This document shows positions 12,345 through 63,795 of a stretch of DNA of 64,000 nt, piece after piece. Location: contig NZ_CP121694.1 of assembly GCF_035573695.1 (NCBI RefSeq), positions 3,294,001 through 3,358,000 on the forward strand, written 5' to 3'. Under the pieces are notes generated by a model. That model was not told the origin of the DNA, ran no database searches, and saw only the letters and a list, made by a program, of their open reading frames with translations. The position numbers and the translations under genes were made by a program. The stretch's first letter is position 1; every line of letters begins with the position of its first letter. The DNA is from Metallumcola ferriviriculae. Its GTDB lineage: Bacteria; Bacillota; JADQBR01.

Positions 12345-13205
12345 TTATCCTTCACACAAAACCTTTGCTAACATTGACTGTTTAATCCCAGTGCCGATAA
12401 AAACCACCCTGCTGAAATCTGACCGGGGAAATTCTACTATTGAATACCGGGTTTTAGTAAAGTCAAAACGAAACCAACCCCGGTGCGTATGCACCAGTCC
12501 CTTCGCCCTAATAATCTGCCCAAATTCACCTGATGCCAATGACTGCCCCAAGTATTCTATAGACTGAGTACTGATAACGGTGCCGGGGCGTATTACCACA
12601 GTTTCCAACGAAGAATGGAAATCAAATTTGGCCGTCGGTTGGTGGTGGTCACCAGGAGGAAGTGATACTTTACAATGTTTCGTCCTGAAAAGTACTGCCG
12701 CAGGATTCAGCCTGCCAATTTCATCCTCCACTCTCTTCAGCAATTTCTCTGAAATTAAATCAATCTTATTAATCAATAAAATATCAGAATTCTTTATCTG
12801 GTCCTTGTAAAAAGGGCCAAACATATGGGCATCTTCCAGATACACAGCCGCATCAATCACACCTACTACTGCCTCCACTGCCACCAAGGGACCCAATTCA
12901 TCAAGAACCCCCAGAATTCCTACCGCTATGCCCGATGGCTCAATGTATAGCTTTTCCGGGTTGAACTTGTCTTTGATATCTTTGATTGCTTCAGCCAGGT
13001 TACTACGCAGTGAACAGCAGATACAACCGCCCGGCAGCTGCACGATATCCACGCTACTGGTACTAGCCAGAAAACTGCCGTCTAGGCCCAATTCACCCAT
13101 ATCATTGACCAGCACCGCCACATTGTCCTCTGCTTTGGTTAAGATATTTTGAATTAGTGTTGTTTTGCCTGCGCCTAAGAAGCCGCAGACCACCTGGACA
13201 CGCAT
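12345..13205 (-). CDS. CobW-family GTP-binding metallochaperone-like protein
   Basis: G3E-family P-loop GTPase: Walker A GFLGAGKTTL at the N-terminus, metal-binding GGCICCSL (CxCC), Walker B region YIEPSG, and the NKIDL guanine-specificity motif; a C-terminal CobW_C part follows. Family members insert or chaperone metals and cobalamin. Last gene of the corrinoid methyltransferase array, so assistance to the corrinoid proteins is a reasonable inference. ATG at 13205, directly after the upstream stop, with GGAGGGGTGGGG before it. Confidence 0.85.
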   Translation of the reverse strand: MRVQVVCGFLGAGKTTLIQNILTKAEDNVAVLVNDMGELGLDGSFLASTSSVDIVQLPGGCICCSLRSNLAEAIKDIKDKFNPEKLYIEPSGIAVGILGVLDELGPLVAVEAVVGVIDAAVYLEDAHMFGPFYKDQIKNSDILLINKIDLISEKLLKRVEDEIGRLNPAAVLFRTKHCKVSLPPGDHHQPTAKFDFHSSLETVVIRPGTVISTQSIEYLGQSLASGEFGQIIRAKGLVHTHRGWFRFDFTKTRYSIVEFPRSDFSRVVFIGTGIKQSMLAKVLCEG

Positions 13206-13206
13206 G

Positions 13207-14478
13207 TTACCCCACCCCTCCAATTACTCCTGCATCCCGTTCCGGTCTTACGTCTAGAGCAGCAGTTACCAACTCTGTAAAATGATACAGCTTAATGGTT
13301 GAATCAGAAGCGTCTATTCCCTTTTTTAAACCTGAATAGCATGAAGGGCAGGGAGTAACTACCGCCTCCGCACCAGTTTTCTCCGCATCATGAATTCGTT
13401 CCACACTCATTTCGGTCTGCAGCTCGGGAAAAGCCATTTTCAGCCCGCCGCCAACACCGCAGCAGCGGGAGTTCTGCCTAATACGCTCCATTTCAATCAA
13501 TTGAATACCCGGCAGTGCCTTGATGACATCACGGGGCGCGTCGTAAATTCTATTGTGCCTCCCAAGGTGGCAGGGGTCATGATATGTGACGCTTAAATCC
13601 ATTGGTTGAGTAAATTTAATTTTTCCCTGATCATAAAGCTGCTGCACATATTCCGTCAGGTGATAGATTTTAAAGTTTAACTGCTTAAGCTTGGTGTAAT
13701 CCTGCTTAATGGTTTTGTAACAGCCGGGACACGAAATCACAACAGTATCAATATTTAAACTATTAAGCATCTCAATGTTTTCCAAGGCATACTCTCTCCA
13801 CGCCGGGTCACCAACGCGCCGCAGCTTACCGCGGCAGCACGGTTCATTTTCGCCCAATACGCCGAAGTCAACCTCTGCCGCCTGTAAAAGATTAATGGTT
13901 TGCTGTGCAGTAGCATTGATTTTCTCATCATATGCCGCTGTACAACCTACAAAATACAGTACCGATGCTTCTTCCTTCAATATGTTTTTTGGCCTTTTTT
14001 CAATCAAATTTTCTGTTAGGGCTTTGTTCATCCATGCATAGCGAAGATCATTGGGATGATTCCATGGGTTATCGCTTTCTTTAATCGCCTTTGCCATTTC
14101 CCACTGCCCTTTAGGAAGATGGACCCCGCCAGCAACCAGCATTTCCCTCACTGCCTCCCACAATTCTACTGTATCTATTCGTACCGGACACACATAATGG
14201 CACTGACCGCAGACGGAACACTGGGTAATAATCTGCATCAACTGTTGATCAATAGGAAACTTGGTTTTACCCTTTGAAAAAAGTTTGGTGAAGACAGAAT
14301 ACTCTTCCTTAACAGCGGATTTCAGACGTAACAGCTTGGCCCGAGGGGTGATTTCCTCCCTGGAATCTTTTGCATAAACGGGACACCAATTTAGACACTC
14401 TCCACATCTGGTGCAGGCCTGCAGTTCCAATAGTTGTCTACTGCTTAGTACTTCCAGCGGTAGTTTTTTTTCTTTCAA
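13207..14478 (-). CDS. HdrD-like (Fe-S)-binding oxidoreductase
   Basis: 423-aa heterodisulfide-reductase-D/GlpC-type protein. Two N-terminal [4Fe-4S] motifs (CTRCGECLNWCP and CSVCGQCHYVCP) are followed by two CCG domains (CPGCYKT...CCRGK; CHLGRH...CCGVGGG and CPSCYSG). Family members pass electrons between membrane carriers and thiol or disulfide centres. It is coupled (TTGA overlap) to the membrane cytochrome-like gene upstream, forming an HdrDE-like pair. TTG start with AAGGAGTGA 9 bases upstream. In this operon it may feed low-potential electrons to the corrinoid activator, which is inference. Confidence 0.85.
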   Translation of the reverse strand: MKEKKLPLEVLSSRQLLELQACTRCGECLNWCPVYAKDSREEITPRAKLLRLKSAVKEEYSVFTKLFSKGKTKFPIDQQLMQIITQCSVCGQCHYVCPVRIDTVELWEAVREMLVAGGVHLPKGQWEMAKAIKESDNPWNHPNDLRYAWMNKALTENLIEKRPKNILKEEASVLYFVGCTAAYDEKINATAQQTINLLQAAEVDFGVLGENEPCCRGKLRRVGDPAWREYALENIEMLNSLNIDTVVISCPGCYKTIKQDYTKLKQLNFKIYHLTEYVQQLYDQGKIKFTQPMDLSVTYHDPCHLGRHNRIYDAPRDVIKALPGIQLIEMERIRQNSRCCGVGGGLKMAFPELQTEMSVERIHDAEKTGAEAVVTPCPSCYSGLKKGIDASDSTIKLYHFTELVTAALDVRPERDAGVIGGVG

Positions 14479-15260
14479 TATAAGTCACTCCTTAAGCCGT
14501 CCTCAGAGGCATTCACTGCAATCTCCAATGGTGCGCTAAAAATGTGCATGAATTTGCTAAAAGGAATGTAGGCAATAAATCCAGCACTGAATAAACCGTG
14601 TGCCACCCAAAGAACGGACAGGTATAGCTGCTTATTTTGAACACCCGCCAGCAGTTCTGCTGCCCACCCACCAACAAATGCATAATTAGGGCCCACTGTT
14701 CCGGTGATAGAAGCAAACCTTATCCCCTCAATGGCAAACCCACTCACTAACAACCCCAATAATATCCAAAGTATATTTGTATCCATGGCTAGGGTATTTA
14801 GTTGTTCCACTTGAATTAATTTTCGCCGGAACAGGGCTGTCAGCACACCAATAAGCATAACCAGGCCGCCTACATCCCCCCAGACGTCAATGACTTGGAC
14901 ACCACTGCCCGCCAGCCAGTACTGCCTAAATACCTCCGGGAGTACGGACCCATCAGCTATTACTGACAGCAGGGTGGTTAGTAAAAGTAAACTAATAAAT
15001 CCCCAAAAAATTGCCATATGCATCAACCATCTCACTTTGGACTGACGCCACAACTGTCGTTGAAAAACAACCTCCATGAATATCCCATGGGCCGCGTGAT
15101 AGATTTTAAATGGGTTATATAAATTTCTTCGCTTGCCTCGCAGCATGATAGCGACATGGTCCCACATTCCTAGTGTGAAAATTATTAAAGCGGCTAGATG
15201 CAGCACCCAAAAAATTGGCCAAGGCTTATAGTAATAAACTTGGTAGAAATCCGCCGGCAC
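14475..15260 (-). CDS. HdrE/NarI-like membrane cytochrome b subunit
   Basis: 261-aa integral membrane protein with about five transmembrane segments and histidines suited to heme ligation (WVLHLAALI, YHAAHGIFMEVV, LMHMAIFWGF, WVAHGLFSAG), as in nitrate reductase gamma and HdrE/DsrM. GTG start preceded by GGAGGATTAATC. With the HdrD-like neighbour it would connect the quinone pool to a cytoplasmic Fe-S protein. Confidence 0.82.
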   Translation of the reverse strand: MPADFYQVYYYKPWPIFWVLHLAALIIFTLGMWDHVAIMLRGKRRNLYNPFKIYHAAHGIFMEVVFQRQLWRQSKVRWLMHMAIFWGFISLLLLTTLLSVIADGSVLPEVFRQYWLAGSGVQVIDVWGDVGGLVMLIGVLTALFRRKLIQVEQLNTLAMDTNILWILLGLLVSGFAIEGIRFASITGTVGPNYAFVGGWAAELLAGVQNKQLYLSVLWVAHGLFSAGFIAYIPFSKFMHIFSAPLEIAVNASEDGLRSDLY

Positions 15261-15262
15261 GA

Positions 15263-16624
15263 TTAATCCTCCCCATTTTGTATTTGCTCCAGACGATAGA
15301 TCAGATTATCCACTGTTTGGGCTACAGGTGAATACGGCCAATTCAAAGATGGTGTATAACAAGTCTCCGCCAATGAAATCTCACTGAGAGATATCTGTTC
15401 AGTCATAGCAAGGGCCAAACGGTCAAGATCCGCTATTCCCACCGGGTCCTCAGAAATTAGCTGAACACCAATTAAGCGGTAGGACTCCGATTCTGCTGCT
15501 AATTTTATATGAATTGGTTTGCCGTTAACATATGGTGGTTTGACAGTAGCCCTATGGGAAGCCGTAGCAACTTGAGGACTATCCGGCAGCAGCATTCCCC
15601 TGGCGGTTTCATTATATCCTGCGGTACCGATATACAAACCCGCCAGCTTAATGGCAAAAGTGTGAACAGTGCCGTTATATGCCACCATTTTCTCAGAAAC
15701 CATATTCTGCGCCGCCACTTTTGCAGTACGCACCGCATTACTGCCCATCATAGACAGTGTGGGTCTACCAGAAATCAAGTCCGTGGTTTGGGCCACATCT
15801 CCAACGGCGAAAATATTAGGGTCACTAGTCCGCAAAAATTGATCCACTTTTATTCCGCCTGTTTCCCCTATCTCTAAGCCACACCGCCGCGCCAATTCAT
15901 TTCGGGGTCTAAACCCTGTGCAGTAGACTATACAATCTGCCTTTACGGAAGAATCATCAATAACTGCAATCTTCTGTCCCTCTTCGGTTCTTATTTCACT
16001 AACCTGGGCATTAAACAAAAAGTTAACACCTTGACCGGCCAACCTGTCCTGTACTATTTGCGCCATTTCCCTATCAAGGAATTTGGGAAGAATTTGGTTA
16101 GCAGCTTCAACTACCCAAACGTCTTCATAGTTACGGTTAACCAGTGCCTCTGCCGCCTCTAACCCAACCGGCCCCGCGCCTATAATCACTGCTGATTTAA
16201 ACTGTGGTAATGCCTTGAGAAAGTTTTCCGCATAAACCATATCCGTGCCCAAGGTAAACTCGTTTGTGCCATCTGCACCGGGAATAGGCGGAATAAATGG
16301 CTCCGATCCGGTAGCAATTACCAGCCGATCATATCTAACCTTTTCACCCTTAACTGTAACGTATTGCTGTTGAGGCTCAATTTCCGTAACCGCCGTCTCC
16401 ATATGATAAAAAATATTGTTTTTTGCCATACCGGCGGGGTCGAAGTTAATCATGGTTTCAAAGCTAGGAATTTCCCCACCGAGAACATAGGTCAGTTCAC
16501 AAGGGCGATATCCGGCAACCTTACGCTTAGTGTACACTTGTACCTGGGCCCTAGGCATATATTTTTTTACCGTTCTCGCCGTAACTGCCGAAGAACCGCC
16601 GCCGCCAATAATTAAAATGTCCAT
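15263..16624 (-). CDS. Pyridine nucleotide-disulfide oxidoreductase (CoA-disulfide reductase/NADH oxidase-like)
   Basis: About 453 aa. It has FAD motif IIGGGGSSAVTA, NAD motif IIGAGPVGLEAAEAL, C-terminal FAD element NIFAVGDVAQ and a Cys in YRPCELTYVLGG, at the place of the single redox-active Cys of CoA-disulfide reductases and NADH oxidases. Directly upstream of the HdrE/HdrD pair, so the three may form one electron-transfer module. ATG at 16624 chosen from GGAGG 8 bases upstream. Confidence 0.84.
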   Translation of the reverse strand: MDILIIGGGGSSAVTARTVKKYMPRAQVQVYTKRKVAGYRPCELTYVLGGEIPSFETMINFDPAGMAKNNIFYHMETAVTEIEPQQQYVTVKGEKVRYDRLVIATGSEPFIPPIPGADGTNEFTLGTDMVYAENFLKALPQFKSAVIIGAGPVGLEAAEALVNRNYEDVWVVEAANQILPKFLDREMAQIVQDRLAGQGVNFLFNAQVSEIRTEEGQKIAVIDDSSVKADCIVYCTGFRPRNELARRCGLEIGETGGIKVDQFLRTSDPNIFAVGDVAQTTDLISGRPTLSMMGSNAVRTAKVAAQNMVSEKMVAYNGTVHTFAIKLAGLYIGTAGYNETARGMLLPDSPQVATASHRATVKPPYVNGKPIHIKLAAESESYRLIGVQLISEDPVGIADLDRLALAMTEQISLSEISLAETCYTPSLNWPYSPVAQTVDNLIYRLEQIQNGED

Positions 16625-16660
16625 AACACTCACCTCCGATTAAATAAATATATATCAGAC

Positions 16661-16707: not shown

Positions 16708-17436
16708 CTAATTTGCCATTAAAGATAATATCTGCTCACGGAGCTTAACAAAAGGTAACGAAGTTCTCTGCCGCGGCCTGGGCAGCTTCACTAGAAACTC
16801 CTGCCTGTTTCCTGCTGGCCTGCCGGTGAGTACCAGTACCCGGTCAGCTAAATAGAGTGCTTCGTCAATATTATGCGTAACAAACACTATAGTCAGCTTT
16901 TCATGTTCCCATAGCTCTATAAGCTGCTGCTGCATGTAATTTCTTGTCTGAGCATCCAATGCCGCAAATGGTTCATCCATCAGCACCACCTTCGGCTTGT
17001 ATGCCAACGCCCGAGCAACCGCAACTCTTTGTTTCATCCCACCGGATAACTGGTGCGGGTAATGACCGCCGAACTGCTGTAAGTTTGTCAGTCGGAGAAA
17101 ATAGGCCGCTAATTCTTCTCGTTTTTCACGCTTCATACCGGAAAGTTCTAACGGAAATGTAATGTTCTTTTTGATAGTCAACCAGGGAAAGAGGGTATCC
17201 TCTTGAAATACAAAACCTATTTCCCTTCCCCCGGGGGAAGGACTGCTCCCATCTACGATAATCCGTCCGGTATCAGAACTTTCCAACCCCGCGATTAAGC
17301 GCAGCAATGTACTTTTTCCACAGCCGCTGGGCCCGGTAATACAGCAGAATTCGCCTTTCTCAACGGTTACTGAAAGGTTTCGAAGGATATTCAACTGCTG
17401 ATAGTTTTTTCCCAGTTTTTCCACCACTAACGCCAT
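16708..17436 (-). CDS. ABC transporter ATP-binding protein (TauB/SsuB type)
   Basis: 242 aa. Walker A GPSGCGKSTLLR, Q-loop VFQEDTLFPW, signature LSGGMKQRVAVARAL, Walker B VVLMDEPFAALD, H-loop FVTHNIDEA. This pattern is that of the nitrate/sulfonate/taurine importer class. Its start overlaps the permease stop by 10 bases. It powers the importer that I infer brings the methylated substrate to the demethylase system. Confidence 0.88.
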   Translation of the reverse strand: MALVVEKLGKNYQQLNILRNLSVTVEKGEFCCITGPSGCGKSTLLRLIAGLESSDTGRIIVDGSSPSPGGREIGFVFQEDTLFPWLTIKKNITFPLELSGMKREKREELAAYFLRLTNLQQFGGHYPHQLSGGMKQRVAVARALAYKPKVVLMDEPFAALDAQTRNYMQQQLIELWEHEKLTIVFVTHNIDEALYLADRVLVLTGRPAGNRQEFLVKLPRPRQRTSLPFVKLREQILSLMAN

Positions 17437-18269
17437 GGCTGCAGCCTCTTTTCCATTACTAAAAATAATTTGTTCATCAGATAACCAATTAAACCGATAG
17501 TGATGGTGCCCGCTATAATTTCAGCCGAACGTCCGCCAATGCTGTATACGGACCAAATATAATAACCTATTCCCATTTTACCGCCAACAAATTCTGCGGC
17601 AATAACGCACATCCATCCCACGCCTAGCCCAATGCGAAGACCGGTAACCATATGGGAAATCGATGCGGGAAACAATACTTTACTGATAATTTGCCACCTG
17701 GTGGCACCGCAGGTAATAGCGGCGTTTATAAAACGTTTTTCCACCGACTTAATCCCCTGGGTAGTATTCAGCAAGACAGGGAAAAACGCACCCACAAATA
17801 CCACAAAAATTTGCACATAAGTAGTAGGTGAGGAAAAATCCTGGAACAATATATAAGCTAGAGGTATCCAAGCCAGCGGTGGAATGGGTCTAAACATTTC
17901 CAGTAAAATGCCAGCGAATTGTTCAAAAAATCGAAAAGTGCCCAGCATCATCCCCAATGGTATTGCCGTCACCATGCTTAGAAAGCATCCCTTTAGCACT
18001 ATCATCAGGCTGGCAAAAGTCATCTGCTGCAGCGTTTTTCCATAAACCGGGTCACCGGAAACTATCAGGCGTATTAGTGTAGCCGTCACCACCCCCGGAG
18101 TAGGCAGCGAAAGCCATTGCTTAACCGCTGCCACCTGCCAGAAAATTATAAACATGGCTATGGTGAACACCGACATACCCCATCTTCTTAGCTTATCGTC
18201 TACATTCAACAGCTTACCCGGTATAATAGTTTGCTTTTCAGCTTCGTAGTTGTTCATTTGGGAGGGCAA
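17427..18269 (-). CDS. ABC transporter permease (TauC/SsuC type)
   Basis: About 280 aa with six transmembrane segments, the BPD_transp_1 domain, and an EAA-like loop around ERFINAAITCGATRWQ...LFPASIS. The TTG at 18269 (11 bases after AAGGAG) is the best-supported start; ATG at 18257 has no ribosome site and a GTG at 18305 is too far upstream. Between the binding protein and ATPase genes in a compact importer operon. Confidence 0.85.
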   Translation of the reverse strand: MPSQMNNYEAEKQTIIPGKLLNVDDKLRRWGMSVFTIAMFIIFWQVAAVKQWLSLPTPGVVTATLIRLIVSGDPVYGKTLQQMTFASLMIVLKGCFLSMVTAIPLGMMLGTFRFFEQFAGILLEMFRPIPPLAWIPLAYILFQDFSSPTTYVQIFVVFVGAFFPVLLNTTQGIKSVEKRFINAAITCGATRWQIISKVLFPASISHMVTGLRIGLGVGWMCVIAAEFVGGKMGIGYYIWSVYSIGGRSAEIIAGTITIGLIGYLMNKLFLVMEKRLQPWR

Positions 18270-18305
18270 GAATGTATCATCTCCTTCTGTACCGGGAAGG
18301 CGCAC

Positions 18306-19385
18306 TTACTTAACCTGAGTTTTCAGGTTACTGTCGTTTAATGCTTTTTCTAATAGGTAATACTGCACAGTTCCTATGGCAGGTATCGCAATAGTCTTAC
18401 CTTTTAAGTCGGAGAAATCATCTATCCCCGCATCGGGGCGTACCACAATAGCAGAACCTTCCTCGTTAGCACCGGCAATAACTTTAATGCCGATATCGTC
18501 ATTAATTCGCTTTAATGTTGCCGGGGCGCCTCCTAAATAGGAAATGTCCACATCATTATTTTTAAAACCTTCCATAGCTGCTACGCCGTTGGTAAAGTTG
18601 ACAAACTCCAGATTAGCGCCAGGTATTAAACCTACGTCCTGATAAAAACCCTCTTTTTGTGCCACGTAAACAGCAAACTCATGTAAGTCTTTTGTTAAAA
18701 AGCCTAAGTGCAACTGGACCTGGCTGTTTACCTTTTGTGGTACCCACTGAGAGTCTTTTTTAAGTTGCTTTGATACTTCTTGGTAGTAACTGTCCACAAA
18801 AAAGTTGGAGAAAAATTCTTCTTTTTCACTATAGCCAATATCAGCGAAATCTTTCGTCAAAAGGCCTCCGGCCTTCAACTGCGAGTAATATGCTTCAAAT
18901 TCGTCCACGTTAGGGTACTCCACAAAGTGGATGGTCTTTAACGCCTCCACCACTACCTCCCTGTTCTTAGCTGTAAACTCCATGGCGTACTCAATTACCC
19001 GCTCTTTGTTCTCTGGGTTATTAATAAAACGAGTGGCCTTGACGTGGGCCCAGGTTACGGCAGATAACACTTTATCATCCTGGTAGTCAATATTAGCGGC
19101 CAATATACAGCAGGGGTGGTTCGGCCATATTTCTCCCGACATCGCTAAATACTTACCATCCTGCCCCAATACCGCTTCGGCATTAAATGGTTCCCAGGCT
19201 ACAAACCCGTCTATTTCCTTTGCGCCCAACTGACTAAGCATGTTGGCCGGCCCGGTTTGGGTAATATAAACTACATCTTCCTGTTGCTGAGATCCACTAT
19301 TGCACCCCGTTACTGCCACCAGTAGAAGGATCAGCACCCCGATAATCACTATTACCTTTTCACTACAAGTTCTTTTAATGTTCAT
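18306..19385 (-). CDS. ABC transporter substrate-binding lipoprotein, circularly permuted (TauA/SsuA type)
   Basis: About 359 aa with a lipoprotein signal (hydrophobic LLLLVAVTGC lipobox). After the signal, the order of the mature domain is reversed. Residues about 35-200 are the part that is C-terminal in normal NMT1/SsuA-type proteins (GPANMLSQLGAKEIDGFVAWEPF, EIWPNHPCC). Residues about 215-359 are the usual N-terminal half (LHLGFLTKDLHEFAVYVAQK, YLGGAPATLKRI, GSAIVVR, DLKGKTIAIPAIGTVQYYLL), ending just where the other half normally begins. Both lobes are therefore complete, as in a circular permutation. ATG at 19385 with GGAGG 9 bases upstream. Ligand unknown. Confidence 0.85.
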   Translation of the reverse strand: MNIKRTCSEKVIVIIGVLILLLVAVTGCNSGSQQQEDVVYITQTGPANMLSQLGAKEIDGFVAWEPFNAEAVLGQDGKYLAMSGEIWPNHPCCILAANIDYQDDKVLSAVTWAHVKATRFINNPENKERVIEYAMEFTAKNREVVVEALKTIHFVEYPNVDEFEAYYSQLKAGGLLTKDFADIGYSEKEEFFSNFFVDSYYQEVSKQLKKDSQWVPQKVNSQVQLHLGFLTKDLHEFAVYVAQKEGFYQDVGLIPGANLEFVNFTNGVAAMEGFKNNDVDISYLGGAPATLKRINDDIGIKVIAGANEEGSAIVVRPDAGIDDFSDLKGKTIAIPAIGTVQYYLLEKALNDSNLKTQVK

Positions 19386-19515: not shown

Positions 19516-20574
19516 TTATCTATTCCTTCGCGCCCATTTCTCCGCACCATATTTCTTAACCGCACCGGTCATTGCCTTTAAATTTACTACCGGCGCCTCC
19601 GGCCATATGTCACAACTGGGCCAAATAGCATCAACACCGCCTTCGATAGCCGCCAGCACAGCTTCTTCTACCTGCTCCGGCGTACCGCTGACCAGCACGT
19701 TAAATGCATCAATATTGCCAAATATCAGTGCATCCTCGCCCACAGCAGCTCTACTGCTTTGTAGGTCATTTTTCTGTTCTACGCTCAATGCTCCCGCACC
19801 GGTTTCCTGCATGATATCCATAATTTTGTTGGTACCGCCACAAATATGCAAAATATGGGGTTTATTTAGATTATTAAATATCTTTGTCAGATGCGGCTGA
19901 ATAACTTTTTTAAATACCCGAGGGCTTAGCACATCCGTGGTAGCTCCCATCTCTCGAACACAGATATAGTCAGCACCAGCATCTTCATAGGCGTTGCCTA
20001 CAGTTATGAGTACGTCTGCTAATCTATCCAGCATTTCATTTATCATATCCGGCTTCTTTAAGCATAACTTTACAACATCATTCAGATCCATTATTTGACC
20101 TGCCAAAGTGAATGGGCCAAGCACATAAGCGCCAATAGCAGCTTCACTGCCGATATCTTCCTTTAAACGTTTGATGGCATCCATTACTACTGGTACGCGA
20201 CCGCGTTGTGCCAAATTATCCGGAATTTCAAATGTTGTCATTTCATCGGTGGAGTTTACTATTTTTTCTTTAATTGTAGGATATAAAAGCTGTTTAACAT
20301 CTTCATAAGGGTTCATTACGCATCCCATAGCCTCGGCCTCCACACAAAGGTCAAATGGAACCACTGCACACTCAAAGTCAAATAAGCGATGCGAAGTAGC
20401 TGCCGCTTCCGCCATCTTCTTGCTATCCCCGTGTAATTGGGGAAAATTATATTCTAAACCCTGAAAACCTGCAGTTGTTACGTTACCCATACCACTAAAA
20501 CATGGAATTCGGTCTATCTCTTCACCCTTTAACAGGCCGAGAATTCTTTCCTTCGGTGTCAATGACGTAACCAA
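19516..20574 (-). CDS. UroD-type corrinoid methyltransferase (MtaA/CmuA/MtvB family)
   Basis: 352-aa uroporphyrinogen-decarboxylase-fold methyltransferase. The zinc motif H-x-C-xn-C is visible as HICGGT and PSCDIWPEAP, which separates it from true heme-pathway UroD. In O-demethylase systems one such protein moves the substrate methyl to the corrinoid protein; in methanogens MtaA/MtbA moves it to CoM. It is one of two in the operon. TTG start with AAGGAGG 8 bases upstream. About 130 bases separate it from the binding protein gene downstream. Confidence 0.85.
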   Translation of the reverse strand: MVTSLTPKERILGLLKGEEIDRIPCFSGMGNVTTAGFQGLEYNFPQLHGDSKKMAEAAATSHRLFDFECAVVPFDLCVEAEAMGCVMNPYEDVKQLLYPTIKEKIVNSTDEMTTFEIPDNLAQRGRVPVVMDAIKRLKEDIGSEAAIGAYVLGPFTLAGQIMDLNDVVKLCLKKPDMINEMLDRLADVLITVGNAYEDAGADYICVREMGATTDVLSPRVFKKVIQPHLTKIFNNLNKPHILHICGGTNKIMDIMQETGAGALSVEQKNDLQSSRAAVGEDALIFGNIDAFNVLVSGTPEQVEEAVLAAIEGGVDAIWPSCDIWPEAPVVNLKAMTGAVKKYGAEKWARRNR

Positions 20575-20631
20575 TATAAAAACCTCCTTGAATTTCCAAA
20601 TATAACTTTTTCACTACTACTTAATGTGAAG

Positions 20632-21573
20632 TTATGCACCTTTTAGTGTATCTGCAAACTCACCAAACAATTTGTATAGCGGGTGATTTTCGTTGGACGG
20701 CAGTTCCTTGCGTTCGTGGTATGCAAGGGTACTCAGTATTAGGCTGGCACTGGCCATAGCAGGTAAGTACCTAGGCATAGCTACTATAGGACCGGTGAAT
20801 AAAAAGTCGCTCCACAGCAGCGATGCAGCTGCCTGCCCTGCGCCATCCATGGCCTTGAAACCGTCACTACCGAATAAATCTCTGGCTTCTTTCCACATCC
20901 ATGTACCATTTGATGCTGCCACACCCGCAGGCCAACCAAACTCTTCTTTTAACATTTTAGTAGCCAAAGCTGAAAAACCAATGGCAGGAAGGTTCATAAC
21001 CGAAGTATCAATCATAATCGTCTCGAAGGTATCTTCACCAATCATTGCCATCATCTTACGAAAAGATTTAACTCTGCCTGCAGGTGACTGGTCCTGCTCA
21101 TCAAAGACCTGAACAACCGCATGTTTTACTCCCATTTCTTTCAGCTGAGTCACCTGACCGGGAATATCCTTATCCCAAGGTGTAATGCTGTTATACAGCA
21201 CCCGATCCTGGAGGCCCAGTTCGGCAATATATTTCATGGCTTCCAAACGCTGGTCCTGAACCCACATGTCTATTCCAAAAGGCTTGTCACTGATACTAGT
21301 CAAGAAGTCAATATAAGTTTTCATCTCGTCGACTTTGGTAGCCACCATGGCCACCATGGCGGGAATCCCCGTCTTCTCGGACAATTCCTCCTGCCGCAGG
21401 ACATACTCTTTTGCCTTAGCTTTGTCAAACTTTCTTTCTTTGCGACTTTCCAATATTTTATCACTGTTATGAAACATAGAGGAAATCAGCAAAGGTGGGT
21501 TTTCCCCGGGCTGTCCACCGACACGGAAATCCCCAATGGTACAAGTCTTTTGTTCCTTGTCAAAACTAAACAC
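20632..21573 (-). CDS. MtrH-like methyltransferase II (methyl-corrinoid:tetrahydrofolate)
   Basis: About 313 aa, MtrH family (subunit H of tetrahydromethanopterin S-methyltransferase), a TIM-barrel pterin methyltransferase. Recognised from FRVGGQPGENPPLLISSMF, PFGIDMWVQDQR and the DTSVMNLPAIGFSALA region. In acetogens such as Moorella and Acetobacterium the homologue (MtvA/OdmD) transfers the methyl from the corrinoid protein to tetrahydrofolate; that is the inferred role here. GTG at 21573, 7 bases after AAGGAG. Confidence 0.85.
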   Translation of the reverse strand: MFSFDKEQKTCTIGDFRVGGQPGENPPLLISSMFHNSDKILESRKERKFDKAKAKEYVLRQEELSEKTGIPAMVAMVATKVDEMKTYIDFLTSISDKPFGIDMWVQDQRLEAMKYIAELGLQDRVLYNSITPWDKDIPGQVTQLKEMGVKHAVVQVFDEQDQSPAGRVKSFRKMMAMIGEDTFETIMIDTSVMNLPAIGFSALATKMLKEEFGWPAGVAASNGTWMWKEARDLFGSDGFKAMDGAGQAAASLLWSDFLFTGPIVAMPRYLPAMASASLILSTLAYHERKELPSNENHPLYKLFGEFADTLKGA

Positions 21574-21666
21574 ATTATCACTCCTTAAAACACGCAATAT
21601 TCAATAAATTTATTTTGAGGGAAAGATGGCAAGGGGTTAAGTTCTTTAAATAAAACGCCTAATTCT

Positions 21667-22161
21667 TTAAAATACTCCGTGATCCCACTTCGGCGGCGGC
21701 AGGTACTCCCACTCTTCGCCATTGATCATCTTTTGAGCTAATTCAACACACTTGGCAGCATATTCGAAAGCATAGGGGATACCGGGGCCTTCAGGCACAA
21801 AACCGGCTAAAATCATCCCGACGGATGCCGCTTCAAATACTTCTTCCACTGTAGCGCCGGCCTTAACAGCAGGATAAACGTGGATAATGCAGCGCGGTGA
21901 CATGTAGGCTACACCGCCAGCCATGAAAATTAATTCTTTAACTTTCCGTGACAGCGCACCATCTTCCCAAATACTGTTATAGAAATCAGCAAATGTTACC
22001 CCTGCAGTAGGGTTCAGTTCATTAATAATTTTGAACATCCTGGGCGTAAACAGCATAGTATCTTGCATGTATTTATTTGCCTCTTCAGCTGTCCATTTCT
22101 TCTTGTCATCACTCACTTGAATTTCACCTCCGGTAAGATACTCAAAAAGTTTCTTAAGCAT
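21667..22161 (-). CDS. Carboxymuconolactone decarboxylase/AhpD-like protein
   Basis: About 164 aa with the all-helical CMD fold signature: VKELIFMAGGVAY, SPRCIIHVYPAVKAGATVEEVFEAASVGMIL. Only one Cys is in the active-site segment (RCIIH) instead of the CxxC of AhpD peroxidases, so disulfide chemistry is doubtful. It lies inside the methyltransferase operon, between the MtrH-like and UroD-type genes, so a role in substrate handling or Cys-redox protection is inferred. ATG at 22161 with GGGAG 8 bases upstream. Confidence 0.8.
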   Translation of the reverse strand: MLKKLFEYLTGGEIQVSDDKKKWTAEEANKYMQDTMLFTPRMFKIINELNPTAGVTFADFYNSIWEDGALSRKVKELIFMAGGVAYMSPRCIIHVYPAVKAGATVEEVFEAASVGMILAGFVPEGPGIPYAFEYAAKCVELAQKMINGEEWEYLPPPKWDHGVF

Positions 22162-22235
22162 GAAACACTCTCCCTGTTCCAAAGCCATCTTCCCCTTAAA
22201 ACCAATATCACCCAACAAAACACTGTGTTACAATT

Positions 22236-23270
22236 TTAATTTTTCCAGTCGTGAGCAGTTTGGACGAAAGCCTGAATATTTTCTAGAGGTACCGTGGGAG
22301 GAATATCGCATCCGGGCAACAGAACATACCCTCCGCCCTCATTAGCTTTCTTAATGCATTCAGTGGAAGCTTCTCTCACACGCTGCTGTGTACCCTGGGT
22401 TAAAGCATGGACAGGATCCACATTTCCGGCAATGCACTGCCGGTCGCCAATCTCTTCCTTGGCTTTGGCCATATCTACTTTATAATCAAATGCAAACAAA
22501 TCTACTTCCGTTTCCGGTATTAACCCTAATCGGTCACTGGTATCGCCGCAGATATGCAAAAAATGCAGCCCGTTAAAGTTGTCATGCAAGCGCCTAGAGA
22601 AGTCCTTTAAGTAAGGCATAGCAAATGTTTCAAACTGCTTACGAGAAATCAGGTCTCCTGATGCTGTAGGGTCAGCAAGGGCCGCGCAAGTTATATAGCC
22701 AGCTTCAAACATGGGCCGGTAAAATTCGTAACAAAGCTCTGTTGAAAACTCTAAAATCGCATGCATGAACTCTTTCTGCTTGAAAGTGCCTCTCATCAGA
22801 CGTTCCACACCATATAACTGACCAGCAATGGTAAACGGCCCCCAAGCCGTGGGGCCAACTAAGTACTTATCCCCGATTTTTTCATTAACAATCTCCGTCG
22901 CTTTCCAAATGGTGTTGATAACCTCGTCGTCCTTCAAACGGCTGATATCCAATTTATCCAAGTCCGCGGGTTCATTAATAAGGGGCGCTTCCAAATCCGG
23001 AGCACCAACCTCTCGATACTTTACTGTTCCTCCCAGAGCTGCAGCATGCAGGTTGTTAAAACCAGACCCCGGGAACACCATGTCTGACTGCACTTTCTCC
23101 GCCGTATCAATAATAAGCTGGGCATATTTTTCGGGCTCACCAACGTAATTATCGAACCTATTGCCGGAATTCTTCATTGTCCATACACCACCGCCGTAAA
23201 TAACAACAGGAACGCGTTCGGCTAACTCCATATTGAATGCCTTAAGTACAGTCTCTTTAGGTGTTAACAT
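22236..23270 (-). CDS. UroD-type corrinoid methyltransferase, second copy
   Basis: About 344 aa, UroD fold, with zinc motif HICGDT and LPGCDIPPTVP. Divergent from the copy at 19516-20574, so the two probably act on different partners (substrate to corrinoid, corrinoid to acceptor) or on different substrates. The ATG at 23270 has AGGTGGAG in front. Directly downstream of the activator gene, as the methyltransferase I gene is in odm/mtv-type operons. Confidence 0.84.
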   Translation of the reverse strand: MLTPKETVLKAFNMELAERVPVVIYGGGVWTMKNSGNRFDNYVGEPEKYAQLIIDTAEKVQSDMVFPGSGFNNLHAAALGGTVKYREVGAPDLEAPLINEPADLDKLDISRLKDDEVINTIWKATEIVNEKIGDKYLVGPTAWGPFTIAGQLYGVERLMRGTFKQKEFMHAILEFSTELCYEFYRPMFEAGYITCAALADPTASGDLISRKQFETFAMPYLKDFSRRLHDNFNGLHFLHICGDTSDRLGLIPETEVDLFAFDYKVDMAKAKEEIGDRQCIAGNVDPVHALTQGTQQRVREASTECIKKANEGGGYVLLPGCDIPPTVPLENIQAFVQTAHDWKN

Positions 23271-23313
23271 ATCTCCACCTCCAATCATATTTTCCACTTT
23301 CGACATCCGAATG

Positions 23314-25287
23314 TTACAGATTAACAGCCTTGCCTTGTTTATCCGCATTTGCTTTCAATACCTTCTCAAGGTTTGGAAACTCATCCTTAGAGTGGGGGAA
23401 ACCCATAGCATCTGCGAACCGCTGCTGGAAGTCCGGCTCAACAGCTGTCTCCACAAATTCAACTTCTTTAGCCACTCTTTGGGCCTCGTCACGCTTGTCT
23501 TTATCCAGCAAAGCAACCTGGGCACCGTCCCCGGCAGCATTACCTACAGCTACTATCTTTTCTAATTCACAGTCCGGGAACATTCCGATAGCCAAAGCAC
23601 TTTCGGTATTAATGTAGCTGCCAAAAGCTCCCGCCAGAGTAACACTATCGATCTTTTCTACACCTAATTTTTCCATCAGATACTTAGCACCTACATAAAG
23701 AGCCGATTTGGCCAGCTGCACCGCGCGTATATCACCTTGAGTAACGGTTATATCCTTACCGATGGAAGTCTCATCAGCCCAAGCCAGCACATACTCCATC
23801 TTACCGTCCGCACCTTTTCTAACCCGTGGTGTCTCAAGCTTCTTATTTATCCGTCCTGTCTTGCCAAAAATACCGGCTTTAAACATTTCGGCGATTACGT
23901 CAATAATTCCTGAGCCGCAGATACCCTTCGAATCGGTCTTTTTAATATCCGGGTACCACTCTTCTTTTCCAATTACCCTATATCTTGGTTCATAGGTTTG
24001 AGGATCAATCTCTACGTTTTCAATGGCCCCGGGGGCAGCGCGCATACCAAATTTTATCTGGGCACCCTCCAAAGCCGGACCGGTAGCACACGAAGTGCAT
24101 AACATTTTATCCGAATTACCAAGATCAATTTCACCATTGGTACCAATATCGATCAACAATCTCATCTCATCTTTTTGCATGTACGGTTCTTCTGCAATCA
24201 TAACTCCCATGTTATCAGGACCCACAAACCCTGCTTCTATGGGCAGCACATGGACGTTAGCAGCAGGGTTAACATTAATGCCCATATCCCTGGACTTAAT
24301 GTTAAGGGATTGCTTAACCGCAGGCGCAAAGGGTGACCGCCCCATGTGTTTGGGTTCTAGACCTAGGGCAATATGGTGCATGGCAGTATTAAATACCAAT
24401 ACCACTTCCGCTACCTGTGCCGGTATGATTTCTGCTTCCCCAGTCATCTTTACAATTAAGTCGTTCAAGCCTTGGATGATAGCATCGTGCATTTTCTCCA
24501 GACCGTCTTCGTTCATCATGGAGTATGTTATTCTAGAAAGAACATCCTCACCATAGCGCACCTGGGGATTCATCATGGATTTCTTGCTGAGTAAAGCCCC
24601 ACTCTTTAAATCCAGCAAATAAGCAGCCACAGTTGTAGTGCCAATGTCCACAGCCACTCCATATGCCTTTTCCACCAAGCCCGGATTAACGGAGATTACC
24701 TCCTTATCATTCCAGATGCTGGCGGTAATTTTCCAGTCCCCTTCTCTAAGTGAATTTGGCAGTGTTTTCAAAGCGAAGTAATCAATGGTTAATCCCCTGT
24801 CCAATTCGCCGTACTTTTCAGTGAGTGCCTGTTGCAGTCTTTCCCAGTCACCACGCTCATCTGCCAATGTAGCTTTTCCCATTTCAACATAATAGTTTTT
24901 GACTGCCGGATTTAGGTTAAAAACACGTTCCTTACCAGTTTCCAGTACTACCTGATTCGCACCCCTGCTCTCCTCAGGAACAAATACCAATACATCGCCA
25001 TTAACTTTAGCATGGCAGGCAAAACGAATATTATCTTCTACCTGTTCTTCCGTCAGTTTTCTTTTTTCATGTGCAGAAAGATCGGATAAATTAGACATCT
25101 TTGAGTCTATATTAAACTTTTCAAAGTAACCTTCCTCAATTTTGACCATGCACTTTTTACAGGTCCCGGCACCGCCGCAGGTGTTTTCTATGTCAACCCC
25201 CAGCTCTCGAGATGCTTCCAAGAGAGTTTTGTCTTCCTCTATTTTCCCCCGCCGGCCGGAAGGTTGAAAAATTACATTATATTCCAT
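23314..25287 (-). CDS. Reductive activator of corrinoid proteins (RACE, ASKHA/DUF4445)
   Basis: About 657 aa. An N-terminal plant-type [2Fe-2S] ferredoxin domain (CGGAGTCKKC plus a fourth Cys in RFACHA) is followed by an ASKHA-fold ATPase with phosphate loops GVAVDIGTTTVAAYLL and LLIDIGTNGEIDLG and the adenosine-side LAGAFGSYI. Such proteins use ATP to reduce inactive Co(II) corrinoid to Co(I) (OdmC/AE in acetogens). The electron donor is unknown; the flavin/HdrDE-like module in the same array is a candidate. ATG at 25287 with GAGGAGGTG upstream. Confidence 0.9.
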   Translation of the reverse strand: MEYNVIFQPSGRRGKIEEDKTLLEASRELGVDIENTCGGAGTCKKCMVKIEEGYFEKFNIDSKMSNLSDLSAHEKRKLTEEQVEDNIRFACHAKVNGDVLVFVPEESRGANQVVLETGKERVFNLNPAVKNYYVEMGKATLADERGDWERLQQALTEKYGELDRGLTIDYFALKTLPNSLREGDWKITASIWNDKEVISVNPGLVEKAYGVAVDIGTTTVAAYLLDLKSGALLSKKSMMNPQVRYGEDVLSRITYSMMNEDGLEKMHDAIIQGLNDLIVKMTGEAEIIPAQVAEVVLVFNTAMHHIALGLEPKHMGRSPFAPAVKQSLNIKSRDMGINVNPAANVHVLPIEAGFVGPDNMGVMIAEEPYMQKDEMRLLIDIGTNGEIDLGNSDKMLCTSCATGPALEGAQIKFGMRAAPGAIENVEIDPQTYEPRYRVIGKEEWYPDIKKTDSKGICGSGIIDVIAEMFKAGIFGKTGRINKKLETPRVRKGADGKMEYVLAWADETSIGKDITVTQGDIRAVQLAKSALYVGAKYLMEKLGVEKIDSVTLAGAFGSYINTESALAIGMFPDCELEKIVAVGNAAGDGAQVALLDKDKRDEAQRVAKEVEFVETAVEPDFQQRFADAMGFPHSKDEFPNLEKVLKANADKQGKAVNL

Positions 25288-25382
25288 AATGCACCTCCTC
25301 AATAATTCAATTACTGCTAGGATGAAATTTGATTAATGGCTAAAGTGGCATATCATAACCATTTAACCTTCAAAGAAACTTA

Positions 25383-26057
25383 TTACTCTGCCAGTTCCAT
25401 TTCTTTTAAGGAACTAAGCATGTTAATGGCATCTTTAAGAGCATTATTGGCATCTTCTGCATAACCATCCGCTCCCCATTTGCCGGCTATTTCTTCGTTT
25501 ACCGGTGCACCGCCAATCATAATCTTTGCCTTGGGATTCTTTTCTTTGATCATCTTGATTACTTCAGGCATACCTACCATAGTGGTAGTCATCATAGCCG
25601 AAAGACAAACCAATTCTGAATCTGTCTTAAGCTGCTCTTCCACAAACTTTTCCAAAGGTACGTCCCTGCCTAAATCATGTATAATGAACCCGGATGCATC
25701 AAACAGCATTTTGACAATATTTTTACCGATGTCATGTACATCACCCTGTACAACACCCATAACCACTTGACCTTTACTGGTGTCCTGATCATTATCCATA
25801 TGAGGCTTTAATATCTCCAAGCCGACATACATGGCGTCCGCACACATCAGAAGCTCCGGCACAAAATACTCCTGCTCTTCATAAAGCTGACCTACTGCTT
25901 CCATGCCCGGTACTAATCCTTCAAAAACGGCCTTATGCGGGTCTAATCCCTCATCAAGGGCGAGTTGAGCTGCTTTTTTAACATCGTCTTCCTCAAAATC
26001 TATCACACCCTGTTTTAATGCTTCTAAGATTTCTTTTTCTTTTTCTGGACTAACCAT
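25383..26057 (-). CDS. Corrinoid (B12-binding) methyl-carrier protein (MtaC/MtvC/OdmA type)
   Basis: 224 aa. An N-terminal helical cap (about 1-90) precedes a Rossmann B12 domain with the base-off/His-on motif DVHDIGKN; SAMMTTTM and IMIGGAPVNEEIA follow. Shuttles the methyl group between the methyltransferases. First gene of the array, preceded by GAGGAGG and a 430-base gap shared with the divergent regulator, so it probably marks the start of the operon. Confidence 0.92.
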   Translation of the reverse strand: MVSPEKEKEILEALKQGVIDFEEDDVKKAAQLALDEGLDPHKAVFEGLVPGMEAVGQLYEEQEYFVPELLMCADAMYVGLEILKPHMDNDQDTSKGQVVMGVVQGDVHDIGKNIVKMLFDASGFIIHDLGRDVPLEKFVEEQLKTDSELVCLSAMMTTTMVGMPEVIKMIKEKNPKAKIMIGGAPVNEEIAGKWGADGYAEDANNALKDAINMLSSLKEMELAE

Positions 26058-53196: not shown

Positions 53197-53448
53197 CTAT
53201 TTCACTTTATTCCATAATCCCTTAAAAGGGAAATCCGGATGTACCAATCTCCAAATCTGATGGCATTCCTTACATTGATACCATTGTTCTGGAAATCCAG
53301 CATATGGCTTTCGGACATTCACCTCAGTTAGGTCACCCGCTGATACCAAATCATCAATATATTTTTGAAATCGTTCAAACTCTGAGATAGAACGAAAGTC
53401 CTCAATTTCTTCCAATACATCACATACACATTTTACTTTACTAACCAA
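53197..53448 (-). CDS. Probable immunity protein for the orphan Rhs toxin
   Basis: 83 aa. Two CxxC-like pairs at the ends (CVCDVLEEIEDF; QWYQCKECHQIWRLVHPDFPFKGLW) around an acidic helical middle; the C-terminal zinc-ribbon-like pattern occurs in small immunity proteins. TTG start overlaps the toxin frame by 16 bases, the tight coupling expected of toxin-immunity pairs. Family not identified with certainty. Confidence 0.6.
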   Translation of the reverse strand: MVSKVKCVCDVLEEIEDFRSISEFERFQKYIDDLVSAGDLTEVNVRKPYAGFPEQWYQCKECHQIWRLVHPDFPFKGLWNKVK

Positions 53449-54911
53449 GATGGATCCACCTTCTCAATAAAAATTTGATTACCTCCACCAACCAAGCCCC
53501 GCTGTTCGGCTGCTGCACCCTCAAATATTGTTGTGCCTTTTGGAACTTTGATTGTCGAAACTTGTGTTGCTATATTTCCCCAATTTTGATCTAATGCACT
53601 ATCAATCGTTGTCTGTAATGGTCCCTGCGGCTTTGTCTTTGTCCAGTAACTTCCAAGCTCCCCTGCTTTACCCCCATATGCTCGGTAAAGAGTTATTTCT
53701 TCTTGGGTTACTATCTTGGTATAGGTTGCGCTTCTAAAAGTTTTCGCAATATTTTCAGGCAATGGCCCAGGATTCATAGAGCCGTATTTGATATTACTCG
53801 AACCCTTAGAGCGAAATAACTGTTTCAGTTTCTGTAACAAGCTTTTACCAGCTTTTTTAATTACGTTCTTACTTAAATTTTCTACACCAAGGACAGGAAT
53901 CATGTTGAGCATTTTGTTAAATTCTTCTTCAGTATACCTTGATTCTCCATTCTCATTTACAACTAGTTGTGGGTGTTGATTTAAACGCCATCTCAAATAT
54001 TTTTCAAATAGGTTATGGTTATCCTTAACCACTAATTCTATTGGTGTTACTGTAGGTCCATTTTGGTTTGGAGTACTAATTCCTGCTGTTTCACCCTGCC
54101 ATTGGGCTTTTGCCGCTGCTTTTCCTAGTCCACTGGTTGACCCTGAATTTGACTGCATGAATTGAGGCCAGTCTAATGGCCTTAACCCTAACGGATCTAC
54201 ATATTTCATCGGGTTGTTAAGTACATACGGATACTTATTTAACGTATTAGGATTAAACAGGCTGCCGTTCCACGGGTCTTCTGAAATAAACCGGCCTATT
54301 TCCGGCATGTAGTACCTGGCATTGGCGTAATACAGCCCGGCGTAATGGTCATAGTCATAGCCGGTGTAGCCTAAGGTATTATCCGGTCCGGGCCAGTTGG
54401 GATCAAATTTTACTGCTCCCAGGGGTCTGCCGAATTCGTCGTAATTGTAATGGGCGCTCTTTTTGCCGTTTGCTCCCACTACTTTCATGATGCTGCCCAG
54501 TTCATCCTGGAGGTAGTAGAGTGTCTCCCATTCGCCGGAATAGGTTGTTTCGTCGCCTTCGGGTACCCAGCCGTTGTCGTGGTCATCCAAGCTCTGGAAA
54601 TGCATGCTTAGTACTTCTAGGCTGTAGGTAAAGCGCTGGGTTTGTACTTGATCGCCGTAGCTCAGCAGGATATTCTGAGTTGGGGACAGCATATCCAGAG
54701 CATAGGTTGTCTCCATCCTATCCCGATAACCGCCTGCGACTGTTCCGGCTGCCGATCCTACACACCGGGCATGGTAGTGAGTTTGATAATCAAAAGATTT
54801 CAGCATTTTCTCGATCTCAGTATCAATTTGAGCTAATTCCACTGCCTGATGCTCTAAATCTCGGACAAGGCTTTGAGTGATAAAATCTCTTGATTCCTGC
54901 ATCCACTTCAA
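53433..54911 (-). CDS. Orphan Rhs C-terminal tip with a different toxin domain, fused to an IS110 fragment
   Basis: 492-codon frame. Residues 1-61 derive from an IS110 transposase, partly out of frame. Residues 62-369 duplicate the core end of the large Rhs protein (YRDRMETTYALD...GSIMKVVG, GYTGYDYDHYAGLYYANARYY, KYVDPLG). Residues 370-492 are a distinct toxin: LYRAYGGKAGELGSYWT, TTIFEGAAAEQRGLVGGGNQIFI, resembling ADP-ribosyltransferase-fold TreTu-type toxins of polymorphic systems. No secretion signal of its own, so it is likely a silent cassette that becomes active after recombination into the main gene. Confidence 0.75.
   Translation of the reverse strand: MKWMQESRDFITQSLVRDLEHQAVELAQIDTEIEKMLKSFDYQTHYHARCVGSAAGTVAGGYRDRMETTYALDMLSPTQNILLSYGDQVQTQRFTYSLEVLSMHFQSLDDHDNGWVPEGDETTYSGEWETLYYLQDELGSIMKVVGANGKKSAHYNYDEFGRPLGAVKFDPNWPGPDNTLGYTGYDYDHYAGLYYANARYYMPEIGRFISEDPWNGSLFNPNTLNKYPYVLNNPMKYVDPLGLRPLDWPQFMQSNSGSTSGLGKAAAKAQWQGETAGISTPNQNGPTVTPIELVVKDNHNLFEKYLRWRLNQHPQLVVNENGESRYTEEEFNKMLNMIPVLGVENLSKNVIKKAGKSLLQKLKQLFRSKGSSNIKYGSMNPGPLPENIAKTFRSATYTKIVTQEEITLYRAYGGKAGELGSYWTKTKPQGPLQTTIDSALDQNWGNIATQVSTIKVPKGTTIFEGAAAEQRGLVGGGNQIFIEKVDPSWLVK
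53803..54725 (-). repeat. 923-bp direct repeat, orphan copy
   Basis: Collinear without gaps and nearly identical to 56294-57216 (constant offset of 2491 bases). Covers the end of the Rhs core and the pre-toxin region; divergence is abrupt on both sides. Confidence 0.9.
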
Positions 54912-55720: not shown

Positions 55721-55981
55721 TTATTCAATATAGAAAATGTCAATTAATTCTTCCAACATTTTACCGTATTTTGTCAATTTATAATGTTCATCAAATCCGA
55801 TTATTTGAAGCATCTCCGAGCATAAATCTCGCATCTCATCTGCTACACTATTGGAGATATCGACTTGCCATTTACCCTGAATAAGCCATCCTTTCATAAT
55901 TTCATTTATCAATTCCATTCTATCTTGTAATACCTTCTTTGTTAAAAAATCTTTCTGTATCTGAGTGATTTTTATAATCAT
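55721..55981 (-). CDS. Probable immunity protein for the main Rhs toxin
   Basis: 86 aa, predicted all-helical, acidic at the C-terminus (DEMRDLCSEMLQIIGFDEHY, MLEELIDIFYIE). Start codon overlaps the Rhs stop as ATGA, so it is translationally coupled to the toxin. No family named with confidence; function is inferred from position. Confidence 0.62.
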   Translation of the reverse strand: MIIKITQIQKDFLTKKVLQDRMELINEIMKGWLIQGKWQVDISNSVADEMRDLCSEMLQIIGFDEHYKLTKYGKMLEELIDIFYIE

Positions 55982-63754: not shown

Positions 63755-63795
63755 CCTCATCCCCAATCTTCATTATTTTCATTGCTGCCAAAGTA

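Follow-up and report, generated by a model that had tools for sequence, protein, structure and literature searches.

Gene content of the locus

The window analyzed here, a 64,000-nucleotide stretch of the single-contig genome of Metallumcola ferriviriculae, carries a minus-strand gene encoding a substrate-binding lipoprotein, termed cpSBP. The ORF starts with an ATG at 19385 and ends with a stop codon at 18308-18306, and a ribosome-binding site (GGAGGTG) lies six bases upstream of the ATG region. A BPD_transp_1 permease and an ABC ATPase, i.e., the partners of a NitT/TauT-type binding protein, are encoded beside it, with the permease ORF beginning at the base directly after the cpSBP stop codon. 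The features of the locus, with the basis for each in brackets where one applies, are as follows:

16708..17436, minus strand: cognate ABC ATPase, its gene sharing 10 bases with that of the permease (ORFs, Pfam)
17427..18305, minus strand: cognate ABC permease, BPD_transp_1 (Pfam, permease tree)
18306..19385, minus strand: cpSBP, permuted substrate-binding lipoprotein, 359 aa (ORF, Pfam order, homologues)
18309..18722, minus strand: cpSBP residues 222-359, the N-terminal part of canonical proteins, up to TauA chain 127 (profile order)
18723..18755, minus strand: linker, residues 211-221, connecting the former C- and N-termini (alignment)
18756..19280, minus strand: residues 36-210, corresponding to the C-terminal portion of NMT1_2/TauA proteins of canonical order, TauA chain 129 onward (profile order)
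19107..19118, minus strand: HPCC motif, residues 90-93 (alignment; putative hinge placement)
19302..19385, minus strand: lipoprotein signal peptide through Cys28, LLLVAVTGC (cpSBP alignment)
19516..20574, minus strand: MtaA/CmuA-family (UroD-like) methyltransferase, directly upstream of cpSBP (TIGR01463, 247 bits, cut-off 235)
20632..21597, minus strand: MtrH-like methyltransferase (NF002142, 378 bits, cut-off 287)
21667..22218, minus strand: carboxymuconolactone-decarboxylase-domain (CMD) protein, conserved in the operon (neighborhood comparison)
22236..23348, minus strand: second UroD/MtaA-like methyltransferase
23314..25302, minus strand: corrinoid reductive activase-like protein
25383..26057, minus strand: corrinoid-binding protein

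Inverted order of the two halves

The original prediction held that cpSBP is a natural circular permutant, in which the half that is C-terminal in related proteins comes first and the N-terminal half last. In Pfam searches with the native sequence, residues 36-132 matched positions 151-249 of the NMT1_2 profile (PF13379) and residues 238-351 matched positions 6-114 of the NMT1 profile (PF09084), indicating that the C-terminal parts precede the N-terminal ones. Among PDB sequences, the corresponding matches were to residues 424-522 of NrtC, in its NrtA-like domain (cpSBP 36-133), and to TauA 28-119 (cpSBP 255-348). When residues 219-359 were placed ahead of 36-218, NMT1_2 gave a single match spanning 5-249 of its 252 positions at 114.2 bits, as compared with 101 bits in two pieces for the native sequence, and the NMT1 match extended over 6-214 of 216. 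The score against E. coli TauA likewise rose from 28.0 to 37.7 bits (E from 1e-5 to 1e-8), now in one stretch. Searches with this re-ordered query matched canonical binding proteins in one piece and the cpSBP-type genes in two; a match extending past the cpSBP stop codon was taken as chance.

A profile of the whole cpSBP family aligned residues 257-358 with TauA chain 28-127 and residues 40-126 with TauA 129-218. The two segments are adjacent in TauA and swapped in cpSBP, and both being covered, nothing was lost at the break. Both halves derive from one family, not from unrelated ones, and, as predicted, each element occurs once. The native protein passes the PF13379 gathering cut-off (101 versus 24.7 bits) and departs from the canonical N-to-C order of NMT1_2. 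It falls below the cut-offs of the SsuA family (TIGR01728; 105.6 bits, or 117.6 when re-ordered, versus 163.5) and of TauA (TIGR01729; 41 versus 304), and neither Pfam nor NCBIfam holds a model spanning the whole of cpSBP in its native order.

A first scan of genome contigs with the single protein as query returned one weak match only. A search of relatives and about 400 genomes, all of the same phylum, identified 16 further full-length genes at 43-53% identity, all of them permuted and spread over 11 other genomes; copies truncated by contig ends occur in a further two, bringing the number of other genomes to thirteen. The cpSBPs are found in seven families of the phylum, i.e., that of M. ferriviriculae and six others. 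Plasmid records contained no locus covering most of cpSBP; what matched there did so in part and was of canonical type. With the order shared by all sixteen full-length homologues, the permutation is far beyond chance.

These sequences also bear on the junction, which had been placed around codon 210: the junction is real, with the linker itself at approximately residues 211-221, where a W.P motif is conserved across most members. The C-terminus lies at one and the same position in every member. A signal peptide had been predicted on the new N-terminus, and the lipobox (VTG-C28) is consistent with this, Cys28 being invariant in 17 of 17 sequences and lipidation thus predicted. That two half genes had been misjoined in assembly or annotation is vanishingly improbable: the same junction recurs in the 16 other full-length genes, from separate assemblies, the genome is a single contig, and the ORF has both a good ribosome-binding site and a lipobox. 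An assembly error was ruled out on the strength of these homologues. We are thus highly confident that cpSBP is a class II (NMT1_2/NitT-TauT) ABC-importer binding protein whose circular permutation is genuine and inherited, a reading backed by profile order, re-permuted searches, conservation and the controlled fold comparison described below.

Fold, break point and parentage

AlphaFold2, run on the 17-sequence cpSBP alignment, produced a model with a mean pLDDT of 90.8 and a pTM of 0.84. By Foldseek against the PDB, its best match had E = 5e-5, with TM scores of at most 0.43 among the matches listed. As a control, L002, a paralogue of canonical order encoded in the same genome, was run identically on a 13-sequence alignment (pLDDT 89.0); this model matched PDB 3un6 at E = 1e-30 and TM 0.90, and SsuA, TauA and NrtA at TM scores of about 0.6-0.8. 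When re-ordered, cpSBP aligned with the control over 288 residues at 26% identity, and the secondary structure of the two models agreed at 91% of these positions. In the models, then, the fold elements of cpSBP appear to be those of the family, with the connectivity alone differing. Since the family was overlooked as a whole by Pfam, NCBIfam and ordinary structure search, more such proteins may lie hidden.

In TauA, domain I comprises residues 23-104 and 202-319 and domain II residues 105-201 (PMC6906117). Mapped by alignment onto this division, the break would fall within domain II, at about 149/151 of the TauA precursor. A break in this lobe would leave domain I continuous (cpSBP residues about 93-308, with linker 211-221 inside it), split domain II into residues about 36-90 and 312-359, and shift the lipid anchor from domain I to domain II. 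Two hinge crossings are probably retained, one near HPCC (90-93) and the other near 308-312. The HPCC motif appears to map close to the second lobe hinge of TauA, and its H90 and C93, which are invariant among cpSBPs, are candidate ligand contacts.

The motif also bears on parentage. In the original prediction WPNHPCC was read as an SsuA/TauA motif and the protein as of SsuA/TauA type, but the Cys-Cys pair belongs to a canonical-order NMT1_2 subgroup (e.g., IWPDHICC, or PDAYCC in PDB 3un6). It occupies the equivalent place in the zinc-bound 3un6 protein of S. aureus, in SaoX and in L023-type proteins, all of canonical order, although the permeases of the SaoX and L023 loci lie outside the clade of cpSBP permeases. 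Canonical Cys-Cys transporters were also seen beside apparent CooS (carbon monoxide dehydrogenase) and cysteine synthase genes in two genera of the M. ferriviriculae family (L139:7105-12597 and L140:362-5842). SsuA, TauA and NrtA-CmpA themselves align with re-ordered cpSBP in all elements at roughly 20-30% identity and have partner permeases and ATPases of the same transporter family, but are of canonical order.

Whether the trees were built from the N-half, the C-half or the full protein, the cpSBPs were monophyletic with 99-100 support, and the permeases adjoining them formed their own clade with 100 support; a single origin of the permutation is therefore likely. The full tree placed the clade among canonical NMT1_2 proteins, mostly of Cys-Cys type (L002 and L015 types, SaoX, the L023 family and others), and the nearest canonical permease was that of L023 (89). 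These data support a Cys-Cys-containing NMT1_2 group, rather than SsuA/TauA proper, as the parent, with the nearest canonical relatives uncertain.

By eye, the C-half looks closest to the Cys-Cys proteins (L002/L015), while the top canonical match overall (L082, 31%) has no Cys-Cys motif, as might be expected had the two halves come from different canonical proteins fused by recombination between neighboring paralogues. We consider such a chimera unlikely. The whole protein groups with Cys-Cys proteins in the full tree, the half trees contain no strongly supported conflicting sisters, and a forced grouping of the cpSBPs with the L023 family, whose permease is also the nearest to theirs, was not rejected for the N-half (p-AU 0.26). 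A two-parent chimera is not supported by the half trees, in which deep placement is poorly resolved.

Under permutation of a single parent, the short linker would have tied together the original chain ends, both of them in lobe I. The new termini would have arisen in lobe II, within the loop that leads from its first helix to the next strand (TauA chain 127/129), with every structural element retained once and a lipoprotein signal peptide placed ahead of the new N-terminus. Such a protein may have arisen via tandem duplication, the outer halves being lost afterwards, but this route is hypothetical: translation of the 240 bases after the cpSBP stop at 17 loci revealed no trace of a second copy, only the beginnings of permease genes, other ORFs and short repeats of GAGTCAG type. 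The repeats lie in tandem between the cpSBP and permease genes at six loci of one genome group (L049, L050, L054, L055, L056 and L058).

Transport context and related systems

Most cpSBP copies, including the one studied here, lie in a conserved corrinoid-methyltransferase operon, in or near which QueG-like, CobW and HdrC/HdrD-like proteins are also encoded. This operon (19516-26057 and 12345-16633 in the window, minus strand) is conserved in several families of the phylum and sometimes occurs in tandem copies, e.g., two in each of two genomes (G013 and G097). At other loci, cpSBP adjoins LarA-like, MerA-like and ArsM-like genes (L051 and, in part, L059) or lies near FdrA/GlcD-like genes (L062 and L064).

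cpSBP is most likely the receptor of a NitT/TauT-family ABC importer, and would act as an ordinary Venus-flytrap receptor feeding the permease and ATPase encoded directly behind it. Judging from the neighboring genes, the importer probably supplies the adjacent corrinoid methyltransferases with a small compound, either methylated or anionic; the parsimonious guess is that a methylated substrate is brought in and demethylated in a corrinoid-dependent reaction. As the neighbors vary between copies and families, either the substrate has diversified or this guess is wrong. Two solo genes (L060:5265-8790 and L061:9968-13459), which encode HPDC in place of HPCC, are followed by radical SAM/B12-binding genes and have no adjacent permease, so that some members may not serve a transporter at all. 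They would fit a lipoprotein sensor or partner protein that has kept the permuted binding fold; for cpSBP this is very unlikely, given that all other copies with enough flanking sequence adjoin a co-inherited permease and/or ATPase.

We put forward only tentatively, as somewhat doubtful, that one ancient event founded a separate class II importer lineage with a receptor tethered by lobe II and a continuous lobe I, and that its permeases went on to co-evolve with this inverted receptor, such that docking and hinge closure would differ from those of all NitT/TauT importers studied. The original prediction had also raised the possibility of altered hinge or permease contacts.

The permutation had been described as unusual. 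Its existence is borne out, but it belongs to a conserved family, probably of single origin, and has precedents elsewhere. Tp0684 (TpMglB-2) of Treponema pallidum, of Type Ic/Cluster Bc, is a naturally permuted binding protein from a family found in spirochaetes and Gram-positives (PMC4990184). Like cpSBP, it is a permuted binding protein of an ABC importer, lipid-anchored as cpSBP is predicted to be, but it has a Type I (cluster B) sugar-binding fold in which the permutation adds a fourth lobe crossing, whereas cpSBP, which matches only class II NMT1_2/TauA families, probably has two. For Tp0684 the idea was raised that permutation suits membrane tethering; canonical lipoprotein paralogues coexist with cpSBP in the same genome, which argues against tethering alone as the reason. 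Circular-permutation relationships have also been reported for the glycine betaine-binding proteins OpuAC (B. subtilis) and ProX (PMC2395249), which are class II, as is cpSBP, but differ from it in ligand family. Against the cpSBP model, OpuAC structure 3chg reached TM scores of only 0.33/0.43, so that no shared break point is established.

Two further systems were considered. The Sao permease and ATPase models were the nearest to the cpSBP partners, but scored well below their NCBIfam cut-offs (147 versus 295 and 248 versus 360, respectively), and assignment to the SAO system (SaoX/SaoB, SaoP, SaoA) was rejected. For cpSBP itself, NCBIfam gave no Sao match up to E = 5; the SaoX sequences examined were of canonical order, and SaoB is short and gave no match. 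The dichloromethane mec cassette resembles the cpSBP operon in its methyltransferases, corrinoid protein and MT-II, but its published protein list includes no ABC transporter (PMC9768040); similarity in kind, not identity, is therefore claimed.

A literature search, from which subscription papers were mostly absent, turned up no publication on cpSBP and no permuted member of the NMT1/SsuA/TauA family; the Tp0684 and glycine betaine-binding cases are the two natural permutations among binding proteins on record. Conserved permutations with a near-exact break point, beside canonical paralogues in one genome, are uncommon test cases for fold evolution, and cpSBP is a natural scaffold for permuted biosensors.

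Elsewhere in the window, the C-terminal region of an Rhs/YD-repeat gene of 1941 aa is partly repeated a short distance away, in a copy that ends differently (53433-54911 and 55978-61803, minus strand), an arrangement that, to judge from the sequences, may resemble polymorphic-toxin loci with displaced tips. Adjoining the Rhs gene, 61817-63766 (minus strand) encodes a protein that on reading apparently ends in S-layer-homology repeats.
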